Assembly (NCBI GenBank): GCA_002255955.1
Contig: NKIM01000022.1
Span: 1 to 64,000 of the forward strand
Length of the DNA: 64,000 nt
Origin: Burkholderiales bacterium PBB2
GTDB lineage: Bacteria; Pseudomonadota; Gammaproteobacteria; Burkholderiales; Burkholderiaceae_C
Direction: 5' to 3'
In this document: positions 53,873 to 57,025 of the stretch, piece by piece
Layout of the letters: every line of letters starts with the position of its first letter
How positions within the stretch are numbered: position 1 is the stretch's first letter
Notes under the pieces: generated by a model
The model's input: the letters and a program-made list of their open reading frames with translations, nothing else
What the model was told of the DNA's origin: nothing
Databases searched by the model: none
Made by a program: the position numbers and the translations under genes

Positions 53873-54526
53873 GTGACCCAACCCGATTCCGCCACGCCCT
53901 TGTTCCCGCTGCAGTCGGTGCTCTTTCCCGAGGGCTATTTGCAGCTGCAGATCTTTGAGCCGCGCTATCTGGACATGGTGCAGCGCTGCTGGCGCGAGGG
54001 CCGGCCCTTCGGTGTGCTCAGCTTGATCGAAGGCGGCGAGGTGCGCCGCCGCGACCCGGCGCGTGGCGAGGCCTTTGTGCAGGAGCGGTTTCAGAGCGTG
54101 GGCACCCTGGCCCGCATCGAACATTGCGAAACGCCACAGGCCGGCTTGATGCGCATCCGCTGCCGTGGCGGCCAGCGCTTCCGCCTGCTGTCCAGCGAAT
54201 GCCTGCCCGGCGGCCTGTGGGTGGGGCAGATCGAGCCCTTGGCCGAGGACGCCGCCGTGCCCGTGCCCACGGACCTGAAGGTCACCTCCACCCTCCTGCA
54301 AAGCCTGCTGCACAGCCTGGAGCAAGGCGCTGCCGCGGTGGATGTGCCGGTGCAGCCCCCCTACCGCTGGGACGACAGCGGCTGGCTGGCCAACCGCTGG
54401 TGCGAGCTGCTGCCCCTGCCCCCCGAAGAGCGCCAGCGCCTGATGCAGCTGGACAACCCCTTGCTGCGCCTGGAGCTGGTGGCCGATCAGCTCGATCAGC
54501 CGGGGGTGTTGGCGGGGCGGGCTTGA
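53873..54526 (+). CDS. LON substrate-binding domain protein
   Basis: The 217-residue protein consists of a Lon N-terminal (PUA-like) domain without ATPase or protease parts (ATPLFPLQSVLFPEGYLQLQ, then FEPRYLDMVQRCWREGRPFG), followed by a helical end (PPEERQRLMQLDNPLLRLEL). Such stand-alone domains are common in proteobacteria and their role is not well known; a part in substrate selection is only inferred. GTG at 53873 is the only suitable start codon. It follows the patatin gene by 85 bp. Confidence 0.87.
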   Translation: MTQPDSATPLFPLQSVLFPEGYLQLQIFEPRYLDMVQRCWREGRPFGVLSLIEGGEVRRRDPARGEAFVQERFQSVGTLARIEHCETPQAGLMRIRCRGGQRFRLLSSECLPGGLWVGQIEPLAEDAAVPVPTDLKVTSTLLQSLLHSLEQGAAAVDVPVQPPYRWDDSGWLANRWCELLPLPPEERQRLMQLDNPLLRLELVADQLDQPGVLAGRA

Positions 54527-54597
54527 GCTTTCGCCCCTCACTTGCCTTGCTGTGTTCGGAGCGGCTTTTGGGGTGCAACGTGAGGCCCTGCAGCCCG

Positions 54598-54800
54598 CGC
54601 CGCCACCGGGCTCATGGTTCCGGGGTCGGCCCTGACGGGCCGACTTCCCTGCGCTGCTCGCACCTCGGGGCTGGCGCATAACTCACTCCGCTCACTGCGT
54701 TCGCTTCGTTCAGACAGAAGCGCCAAGTCAGAACTTGAAGCGCGCGTGTACGCGCGCGCCCCGAGGCGCTGTGCTGCTCGGCCCGGCACAAATCGCCCGG
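54598..54800 (-). repeat. Left copy of an inverted ~205-bp repeat
   Basis: Read on the minus strand this copy matches 54891-55098 along its whole length with scattered changes. It holds two perfect hairpins: GTCGGCCC-TGAC-GGGCCGAC (54625-54644) and GCGCGCG-TGTA-CGCGCGC (54740-54757). It is intergenic and has no coding signal. Confidence 0.85.
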
Positions 54801-54890
54801 CAGCGGCACGGGCTGCAGGGCGCTTGCATCGCGGTCGATGTGCCCCATCAACGGTGGAACACGCCACCTCCGTAGGTGGCTCGGCCCGCC

Positions 54891-55098
54891 GACGGGCGAT
54901 TTGTGCGCGGCCGAGGGCGCAGCGGAGCGGCTCAGGCGCGTGTACGCACGCGCTTCAAGCTCTGACTCGGCGCCACCTGTTTGACCGCAGTGAGCGCAGC
55001 GAACGGAGGGAGTTTGGCGCCGCTGAGCCGCGCAGTGAGCACCGAGGGGAGTCGGCTCGCAGAGCCGACCCGCGAACCATGAGCCCGGTGGCGGGCCG
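54891..55098 (+). repeat. Right copy of the inverted ~205-bp repeat
   Basis: This copy has the same order of blocks as the left one: GGGCGATTTGTGC, the hairpin GCGCGTG-TACG-CACGCGC (54936-54953), CGCTTCAAG, TCTGACT, GTGAGCG-type purine blocks, the hairpin GTCGGCTC-GCA-GAGCCGAC (55051-55069) and AACCATGAGCCCGGTGGCGG. The 90-bp centre between copies contains GCCACCT-CCGT-AGGTGGC (54863-54880). Confidence 0.85.
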
Positions 55099-55179
55099 AG
55101 CCACCGCAGCGAGAAAGAGAGCTGCGTTCAGTGCGAAGGAGATCCGTCATGTTCCTCCACCTCAGCTGCCTGACAGACG

Positions 55180-55207
55180 AAAAAAAGCCCAGCGGATGCT
55201 GGGCTTG
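55180..55207 (-). terminator. Rho-independent terminator of the phasin gene
   Basis: On the minus strand AAGCCCAGC pairs with GCTGGGCTT across ATCC and is followed by a T-run. It lies about 70 bp beyond the phasin stop. Confidence 0.92.
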
Positions 55208-55275: not shown

Positions 55276-55833
55276 TCAGGCGGCAGCGCGCTTGGAAGCG
55301 CGGGTGGCCGTTTGGGTGGCCTTGACGGCGCTGTTGGTGGCGGCTTCGAAGTTGGCTTCGGCCACTTCGGTGGCTTGCTTGGCCGCCTTTTGCACGGACT
55401 CGAAAGCGTTGTTGGCGGCGGCGACGGCGCTCTTCACCAGGGCGACGGCGTTTTCGGTGCCGGCCGGTGCGTTCTTGGCGGCGTTTTCGACCACGGCCGA
55501 GAACTTGGCTTGGATGTCAGCCAGCTGGGCTTCAGCCACCTTGGCCACTTCGGCATTGGTGCTGGAGGCGATGTCGTACAGATGGCGGCTGTAGGAAGCG
55601 GCCTTCTCGGCGCTGGGCTGCAGCAGGGCGCTTTGCAGGGCCAGCAGCTCTTGAGCGTCCTTCACCGACAGGGCGGCTTGGGTCGACTCGACGGCTTCGC
55701 TCAGGGCGGTTTTGGCCACTTGCAGGTTCAGTTCGACCAGCTTTTCCACGCCTTCGAAAGCCTTGTTGGTCAGGCCAAACAGGGTTTCGACATTGGCTTT
55801 GTGGGCGGCGATGATTTGTTCGGTAGTCAGCAT
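55276..55833 (-). CDS. phaP: Phasin, polyhydroxyalkanoate granule-associated protein
   Basis: Phasins coat polyhydroxybutyrate granules in the cytoplasm and set their size and number. The 185-residue product has the Phasin_2 pattern: [20 protein letters not shown], then [20 protein letters not shown], and amphipathic helices rich in Ala, Val and Glu. The C-terminal end is a Lys/Ala/Thr-rich tail ([15 protein letters not shown]). The ATG at 55833 has an AGGAG site; upstream residues in the frame are not family-like. Two PhaR-like palindromes and a strong promoter lie upstream. Confidence 0.95.
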
Positions 55834-55898
55834 GGAGCACTCCTGATGGGGGGTGACCCCCGTTGATTCGATGGATGAAATCGTTCGACAGCGATAAA

Positions 55899-55913
55899 TG
55901 TTGCACTGCAACA
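55899..55913. promoter_or_regulatory. PhaR-like operator at the phasin transcription start
   Basis: TGTTGCACTGCAACA is a perfect palindrome with 7-bp arms and TGC/GCA half-sites, as described for the PhaR repressor. It overlaps the expected transcription start of phaP. Confidence 0.65.
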
Positions 55914-55919
55914 AAACGA

Positions 55920-55947
55920 AGTATAGGGATGCCGGGCGGCTTTGCAA
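55920..55947 (-). promoter_or_regulatory. Sigma-70 promoter of the phasin gene
   Basis: On the minus strand TTGCAA (55942-55947) and TATACT (55920-55925) are 16 bp apart. The start would be near 55912, giving a leader of about 80 nt. Confidence 0.75.
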
Positions 55948-55953
55948 GACATT

Positions 55954-55972
55954 TTTGCTGCGGCGCAGCAAA
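55954..55972. promoter_or_regulatory. Second PhaR-like operator upstream of phaP
   Basis: TTTGCTGC-GGC-GCAGCAAA has perfect 8-bp arms and the same TGC/GCA half-site type as 55899-55913. It sits just upstream of the -35 box. Confidence 0.6.
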
Positions 55973-56077
55973 TTAGGGGGATTCGCCGGAATTCCTGCCT
56001 TCTTCCGCAGCTTGGCGCCGCGCGGTGACGCCCCCATGACAGGCACGGAATGCCACCGCCCGCTATGGTGTGCACCC

Positions 56078-57025
56078 ATGCAGGCCTTTCATTCCGACGC
56101 CCATTCCCTGGCCTTGCCGCCGGGTCACAGCTTTCCCGCCAGCAAGTACCGCCTGCTGCGCGAGCTTTTCGAGGCCGAGCCCGGTCTGCTGCGCATGGCG
56201 CCGGCGCCGGCTGCCAGCGAGGCGGAACTCTGCCTCGTCCACACGCACGAGTACGTGAACGCGGTGCTGCAGGGCCAGTTGAGCGCGGCCCAGCAGCGCG
56301 AGATCGGTTTCCCCTGGTCGCCCTCGATGGCGGCGCGCTCGCTTCATTCGGTGGGCGCCAGCATTGCCGCAGCCCGCGCTGCCCTGGCCGAGGGCGTGGC
56401 CGCGAACATGGCCGGCGGCACCCACCATGCCTTTGCCGACCGGGGTTCGGGCTACTGCGTCTTCAACGATGTCGCGGTGGCTGCGCGCCTGATGCAGCAG
56501 GAGGGGCGGGCGCAGGCGAGGCCGGGCGACTCGCGGCTTCGCGTGCTCGTCATTGATCTCGATGTCCACCAGGGCAATGGCACGGCTGCCATTTTTGAGG
56601 GCGACGACAGCGTATTCACCTTCTCCATGCACGGCGCCAAGAATTTCCCGGCCCGCAAGGAGCACAGCGATCTCGATGTGGAGCTGCCCGATGGCTGCAG
56701 TGACGAGCCCTACCTTCAGGCACTCGACCAGGCGCTCGAAGAAGTTTGGGCTCGCCATGCCGCCGCAGGCGCCCAGCCCGGCCTGGCTTTCTACCTTGCC
56801 GGCGCCGACCCGCACGAAGGCGACCGCCTGGGCCGCCTCAAGCTCAGCAGCGCCGGCCTGCTGGAGCGCGACCGGCGCGTGCTCTCCGCCCTGCGCGAGC
56901 GTGGCATCCCCGTCGCCCTGAGCATGGCCGGTGGCTACGGCCACGACATCGCCACCACGGTGGCGGTGCAAGCCAACACGCTCAACGAAGCGGTCAGGGC
57001 CTGGACGGGGTGGCGGACGCGCTGA
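56078..57025 (+). CDS. Histone deacetylase-like (class II) amidohydrolase
   Basis: The 315-residue protein belongs to the arginase/deacetylase fold and has the zinc-site motifs of HDAC-like enzymes: [51 protein letters not shown] and the catalytic Tyr in SMAGGYGHD. Bacterial members remove acetyl groups from acetoin-related regulators, polyamines or other small molecules; the substrate is not clear here. It is divergent from the phasin gene across a 244-bp regulatory region. Confidence 0.92.

Follow-up and report, generated by a model that had tools for sequence, protein, structure and literature searches.

Dissimilar palindromic cassettes with common inverted ends at shared intergenic loci in the Roseateles/Paucibacter group

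Between a LON-domain gene and a phasin gene, two repeats of about 205 bp stand as mirror images of each other, which raises the question of what such a pair is and what keeps its hairpins. The window, i.e. the whole stretch of 64,000 nucleotides that was analysed, is part of contig C53; the genome (G000), from the Roseateles/Paucibacter group, measures 5.48 Mb and is assembled in 90 contigs. The same-genus relatives compared included Paucibacter sp. Y2R2-4 (G012), Paucibacter sp. DJ2R-2 (G009) and three MAGs labelled Rubrivivax (G002), Roseateles (G001) and uncultured Burkholderiales (G007).

The mirrored repeats at 54598-55098 are the two halves of one gene-less folded cassette, named cassette A. 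The whole element measures about 600 bp (about 54556-55155 of the window), and the window feature is one copy of it, an imperfect palindrome with two diverged structured arms, a spacer and inverted terminal motifs (Table 1). The original prediction described an inverted pair of repeats; the pair is real, but it does not consist of two free repeats, being one element that is copied whole and whose left and right arms stay distinct. The hairpin letters and coordinates given there, including those of the central 7-bp hairpin, were correct on direct reading, and the changes on both sides of a stem between the two copies are present in the outer hairpin and in stem III. When 54600-55094 was compared with its own reverse complement, the identity was 72% (E 3e-68), and a repeat search likewise returned the arm pairs. 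Compared with dinucleotide shuffles, the fold of a 541-nt strand is more stable by 15 sd, which mostly reflects the long inverted repeat, because stretches from the single window arms reach a fold z of only -2.5 and -0.8 and are not exceptionally stable. Open reading frames listed across the element were judged spurious because the repeats are palindromic. At the left end the window reads TTCGGAGCGGCTTTTGG where many other copies have TCGGCACnnAGCmGCCTTTGG, the right-end terminal motif reads AGCGGAGGTCCGCAATGTGCCGA in copy L036, and CGGCAC is absent at both ends of the window copy.

Table 1. Features of the element and of its neighbourhood (positions in the window).
Feature	Position	Strand	Basis or remark
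LON substrate-binding domain gene	53873..54526	+	Pfam PF02190; converges on element
Left end of element	54556..54579	+	Decayed terminal motif TTCGGAGCGGCTTTTGG and inner flank; alignment of copies
Left arm, cassette A	54598..54800	-	Minus is the strand reading outward from the centre
Left-arm outer hairpin GTCGGCCC/GGGCCGAC	54625..54644	.	Letters read directly
Left-arm three-way junction	54663..54766	.	Consensus structure of arm alignment and letters
Left-arm stem I	54663-54671/54758-54766		Part of three-way junction
Left-arm stem II GGCGC/GCGCC			Inside three-way junction
Left-arm stem III GCGCGCG/CGCGCGC	54740-54746/54751-54757		Letters read directly
Central spacer	54801..54890	.	Contains 7-bp hairpin 54863-54880
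Right arm, cassette A	54891..55098	+	Inverted relative of left arm, 77% identical
Right-arm stem III GCGCGTG/CACGCGC	54936..54953	.	Letters read directly
Right-arm outer hairpin GTCGGCTC/GAGCCGAC	55051..55069	.	Letters read directly
Right end of element	55119..55155	-	Alignment of copies; decayed terminal motif at about 55136-55155
Terminator-like hairpin of phasin gene	55185-55206		Adjoins element
Phasin gene	55276..56079	-	Pfam PF09361; converges on element; ORF as listed, true start may be further in

Copy numbers of cassette A are lower bounds. The own genome holds at least nine near-full copies including that of the window, the other eight being 93-96% identical over about 530-545 bp, and many shortened copies besides, often at contig ends; at least 83 pieces were found among the best 40 of 112 candidates. 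Matches were present in 16 of the 58 other genomes searched (genus, 10/17; other genera of the family, 5/17; rest of the order, 1/24), five of which contain near-full copies (G001, G002, G007, G009 and G012). Further copies in the host and its relatives, on which the original prediction had staked its claim, thus exist, and with this dispersal its proposal of a structured intergenic repeat or non-autonomous mobile element is supported. A purely local inversion-duplication is excluded because the unit of left and right arm is dispersed. By a GC3 heuristic, the genes around 37 loci were convergent at 16, tandem at 14 and divergent at 1, while 6 loci, the window's own copy among them, received no assignment. 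In G022, a member of another genus, inverted arm pairs stand at other spacings, about 0.14 to 1.2 kb apart (L122, L118 and L120), and at L122 a 234-aa ORF lies between the inverted arms.

Conservation of the arm structure was analysed in an alignment of 97 arms, in which right arms were reverse-complemented to match the left ones. There had been 105 distinct arms, but 8 from shortened or deleted copies (in L042, L043, L044, L049 and L052) were removed before the covariation analysis. Loci of G000, G001, G002, G007, G009 and G012 contributed 68 arms, and matches in G022, G024, G031 and five further genus members contributed 29. The RNAalifold consensus consists of an outer hairpin and a three-way junction, with an energy of -119.5 and a covariation term of 66.6. 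When column pairs were ranked by G-test with APC, pairs of this structure filled 9 of the first 10 places and 22 of the first 30, compared with 0.04 and 0.11 expected by chance. The selection on structure that had been suggested from the two window copies is therefore supported. In subsets, structure pairs in the top 30 numbered 16 for the 29 non-locus arms alone, 10 for 34 left arms and 6 for 34 right arms. Under a stricter null, in which substitutions were redistributed along a tree (60 replicates), four pairs remained significant, all four in the structure. The off-pairs, whose cells are not independent events, were 53 A.C versus 2 G.T in stems I, II and II-inner in arm orientation, with the opposite bias in the outer hairpin (6 A.C versus 22 G.T) and stem III (0 versus 6). 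Since the 53 A.C pairs are G.T on the other strand, reading outward from the centre, this bias suggests that the folded strand may be the outward-reading one.

The same ends bound other palindromic cassettes, namely C in the own genome, B in G009 and D in both G002 and G009. All four are imperfect palindromes with no nucleotide cross-match among them, so that A, B, C and D form a set of mutually dissimilar palindromic cassettes with common ends. The window locus was found in G009 via the LON-domain gene, and there the same two genes flank cassette B, a palindromic insert of CGCAGAG repeats with a core of about 130 bp and ends of the same type. Cassette B occupies at least 35 places in G009 (best 40 of 106 candidates) and had no match in G000 among the best 40 of 63 candidates; C occupies at least about 19 places in G000 and at least 5 in G009 (best 40 candidates per genome). 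Against the plasmid and phage collections, cassette A gave no match at the sensitivity used, and C gave one weak plasmid match with 29% coverage.

Flank searches were performed with 11 own-genome A copies in G002 and G009, with 9 C sites of G000 and with 8 B sites of G009. They yielded 27 G000/G009 pairs, which are not 27 loci, since L038 and L288 enter twice, once per flank. At the 14 sites aligned on both sides, the two genomes carried a different cassette in 12 cases and none in G009 in 2, and never the same one; the combinations were A/B at 5 sites including the window, A/C at 2, C/B at 4 and C/D at 1, where D was recognised by eye. The 13 pairs aligned on one side only comprised 7 with different cassettes, 5 with none in one genome and 1 ambiguous (L034/L226, counted so for the distance of about 1.3 kb to its B copy). 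Against the closer G002, 13 pairs were compared: 4 agreed in both cassette and orientation (some of them truncated at contig ends), 3 had different cassettes, 2 of these seen from one flank only, 3 had none in either genome, and 3 were cut by contig ends before the site. The L294 locus carries C in G000, D in G002 and B in G009. Since different cassettes stand at the same intergenic loci, the loci are kept while the inserts change. An apparent exchange of inserts between common ends could not be seen from the window letters alone. Flank homology up to CGGCAC was clearest at L277/L309, L284/L305 and L049/L215 (left); the motif-picking script missed the motif at several other ends of this comparison.

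Several single loci were noted besides. Cassette D at L313:1822-1958 (G009) and at about 1230-1337 of L306 (G002) is a near-perfect palindrome of the CACAGAGGCACGGAG type, and CACAGAG repeats like it occur in many unrelated bacteria. An internally deleted cassette C of roughly 140 bp lies at L335:414-555, adjoining the apparent end of an RNase P RNA gene. At L192/L299 (G000 C34:102583-102773) the outer end of cassette C is only about 65-70 bp from a terminator-like hairpin. When L038 and L326 (G000 C70) were compared with L230 and L285 of G009, the flanks of one copy were found at two cassette-bearing places, as if the elements were rearrangement breakpoints.

Most A copies end in an inverted motif outside the 540-bp core, and the consensus over A, B and C is GGCnGCnntCGGCACnnAGCnGyC. 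In a first count the A anchors also placed 22 left and 22 right sites without the motif, and the A ends were recounted cleanly because left and right anchors cross-match. Among own-genome A ends in the clean count, exact CGGCAC stood at the expected place in 16 of 23 on the left and in 8 of 21 on the right, and with one mismatch in 1 more and 7 more, respectively; random windows contained it exactly in 1.8% and with one mismatch in 21.5%. Within one mismatch it was present at 42 of 46 B ends (30 exact) and 31 of 35 C ends (23 exact), mostly at one distance from the insert (18/24, 18/18, 15/17 and 12/14). The pattern CGGCACNNAGCNGNCNTT had 96 matches in the own genome versus 8 for a backward control, and of 18 exact matches 14 were at A or C ends. 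By a loose motif count, in which 28% of random windows match and near-duplicates were removed, the motif was found at 21/34 A ends and 32/32 B and C ends of G000, G002 and G009, and the pooled A ends of G007, G012 and G001 were of the GTGCCC type in 4/20 and of the CGGCAC type in 4/20. G007 contains 19 exact copies of the 15-mer GTGCCCGGAGCGGNC, and 36 with up to one mismatch versus 10 for the control. Ten of the exact sites lie beside A, four beside C and five beside nothing recognised (several at contig ends), so the same cassettes adjoin another end motif in this relative. The ends of the G012 and G001 copies were more varied.

The best explanation, held with about as much belief as doubt, would be exchange or re-insertion of cassettes between the inverted ends by a trans-acting enzyme. 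Without a docking site, it is implausible that insertions hit the same dozen positions independently. Each lineage would have its own trans-acting enzyme, which would recognise the ends and replace or re-insert whatever stands between two inverted ones, while the outer half of the motif and the CGGCAC core would stay with the locus. Docking loci would then exchange inserts faster than loci are gained or lost. The arm structure may be kept since the single-stranded arm, read outward, would be needed for copying or recognition, and a side effect on the transcript ends of neighbouring genes is possible. Taken further, and only as a tentative suggestion, the Roseateles/Paucibacter chromosome may carry some forty to fifty docking loci downstream of genes, with inverted hairpin sites at which a dedicated, lineage-specific recombinase would swap gene-less structured cassettes, and the outward-read arms could be its guide or its folded single-stranded substrate.

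Several results speak against exchange. Alignment was restricted to one flank in 13 of the 27 G000/G009 pairs, and the two flanks of the G000 copies L038 and L288 map to different places in G009. Clean empty sites with a target-site duplication were not seen: the L032/L228 junction is unalignable and G009 has other sequence at L292/L307. Among own-genome A ends, 6 of the 23 on the left and 6 of the 21 on the right lack CGGCAC even when one mismatch is allowed, those of the window copy included. Stems pairing the outer with the inner half of a single end exceeded a within-class permutation only modestly, with at least 5 pairs at 44 of 147 ends and a permuted mean of 33 (sd 4). In G012 the 15-mer GTGCCCGGAGCGGNC was not enriched (11 versus 8 for the control), and just 4 of the 20 pooled A ends of G007, G012 and G001 had this other motif, which is thus not general outside G007. 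No enzyme came to light. Y1 transposases (PF01797) are present in all 18 of 18 genus genomes, the own included, and no full end was recognised beside Y1 genes at 14 loci searched with a loose motif, which gave many scattered matches. A REPIN/RAYT system is not favoured as the mover; the two own-genome Y1 genes that were read have GGGGTCAG repeats instead of cassette ends (a third gene is at C83:55707). These two genes, L257:709-1401 and L266:1150-1923, are flanked by inverted repeats of the GGGGTCAG type in a TIRYT-like arrangement.

Instead of being exchanged, MITE-like cassettes might have entered a pre-existing short REP-like palindrome independently in each lineage through a transposase targeting it. 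This is conceivable but on balance doubtful: the outer half GGCnGC of the motif is common to the flanks of A, B and C, and REP-targeting IS elements are documented in excerpts of PMC1525189, while the inner ends are cassette-specific directly after CGGCAC and the 18 exact CGGCACNNAGCNGNCNTT matches, the only ones followed, include no bare docking palindrome in the own genome. Three of the four matches away from A and C ends have no facing partner within 2 mismatches, and the fourth (L336), in apparent coding sequence, has one with 2 mismatches. We consider it unlikely that homologous recombination produced the pattern, with cassettes imported together with their flanks from relatives or paralogues converting one another via the short common ends. 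In its favour, and against exchange, the tree places the window copy with G000 copies and its G002 ortholog, also an A, with three G002 copies, although this grouping by genome is incomplete, L091 (G009) and L094 (G002) lying among the G000 copies; the split could also come from gene conversion. In the 540-bp core the window copy resembles the G000 copies (93-96%) more than the G002 ortholog (88.6% over 579 bp), yet over 670 columns including the flanks the ortholog comes first by identity (0.856 versus 0.849). Excerpts of PMC3898611 discuss Neisseria repeat arrays as promoting recombination, and a recent import is possible at L049/L215 because the 96% identity of its flanks exceeds that of every other G000/G009 pair. 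However, at L294/L306 (C versus D) flank identity is 94-95%, inside the span of the other G000/G002 pairs, the change is confined to about 110-300 bp, and the common ends measure only about 20-25 bp.

That the element is mainly a structured RNA or a 3' end element of the neighbouring genes, such as a bidirectional terminator or transcript stabiliser, appears improbable. The covarying structure, the off-pair bias to one strand and the location downstream of genes would suit it, but the element matched no Rfam family at gathering score (best sub-threshold match E 0.3 or weaker; over the window a tRNA was the sole match), and dissimilar cassettes replace A at the same loci, which makes it unlikely that the locus has a sequence-specific RNA function. 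A promoter scan found none, which carries little weight since none were expected by chance either. The differences could finally be an artefact of repeats misjoined in short-read assemblies, as many G000 contigs end in cassette A and G002 is a fragmented MAG, 76% complete, whose contig C311 brings together two flanks that G000 has in separate places. On this contig (L304/L096) the left flank of the window element is joined across A to the flank of another G000 site (on C35); the cause would be a rearrangement at the element or a misjoin in the MAG. At 14 sites G000 and G009 each have the two flanks together in a single locus, and misjoined G000 reads do not explain B versus A or C, because B had no match in G000 among the best 40 of 63 candidates; assembly errors are not a plausible source of the G000/G009 differences, and we attach next to no weight to this reading.

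Among published systems the nearest pattern appears to be that of NIMEs and dRS3 in Neisseria, which is also a betaproteobacterium, followed by REP dimers with variable spacers; by their defining end sequences the cassettes belong to neither. The dRS3 unit is ATTCCC-N8-GGGAAT, 20 bp with 6-bp inverted ends, RS repeats measure 30-160 bp, and NIMEs combine gene-less intergenic repeat families with one short imperfect palindrome (excerpts of PMC3898611). Like NIMEs, cassettes A, B, C and D combine gene-less inserts that are unlike one another with one type of short inverted end, and GGCnGC-N12-GCnGyC, about 24 bp, is a short imperfect palindrome. Unlike them, they end in the consensus given above, or in GTGCCCGGAGCGGNC in G007, and not in dRS3; the inserts are about 100-600 bp and themselves inverted pairs, the loci examined contain no side-by-side arrays, and orthologous loci differ one insert for one. 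In excerpts of PMC3733652, REP dimers are two inverted palindromic units with variable spacers and are non-autonomous, features that REP dimers, BIMEs and REPINs have in common with the cassettes. The inserts are larger and structured here, the end consensus lacks the GTAG tag of REPIN/RAYT, and the two own-genome Y1 genes read are flanked by GGGGTCAG-type repeats in place of the cassette ends. MITEs such as Correia/NEMIS, ERIC and RUP have terminal inverted repeats, are mostly intergenic and form a stable transcript fold (excerpts of PMC2229807). Cassette A resembles them in its terminal inverted repeats, dispersed copies and lack of genes, and differs in that several dissimilar interiors have common ends, locus occupancy is conserved while the interior differs, and no target-site duplication was seen, there being no alignable empty site.

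In Acinetobacter, dif/pdif modules lie between sites of site-specific recombination and move from replicon to replicon. By description the cassettes resemble these modules in lying between putative recombination sites, and differ in being chromosomal and gene-less with another site sequence. IS110/IS1111 recombinases use a structured non-coding bridge or seek RNA as guide, and by description the likeness lies in palindromic targets and structured nucleic acid. REP-like palindromes are targets of IS110/IS1111 elements in excerpts of PMC1525189. The open-licence PMC literature yielded no published description of these cassettes, and excerpts of a triplex-repeat paper (PMC4666352) and a MITE review (PMC2229807) contain none of their ends.

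In conclusion, dissimilar intergenic repeat families with common ends replace one another at shared loci among members of one genus, and in the relative G007 the ends differ while the inserts persist, so site, end and insert are separable modules. This provides a testable case for exchange machinery acting on non-coding DNA and a concrete comparison for the origin of NIME- and BIME-like mosaics. It also advises caution, since turnover of cassettes can account for intergenic divergence between close species.
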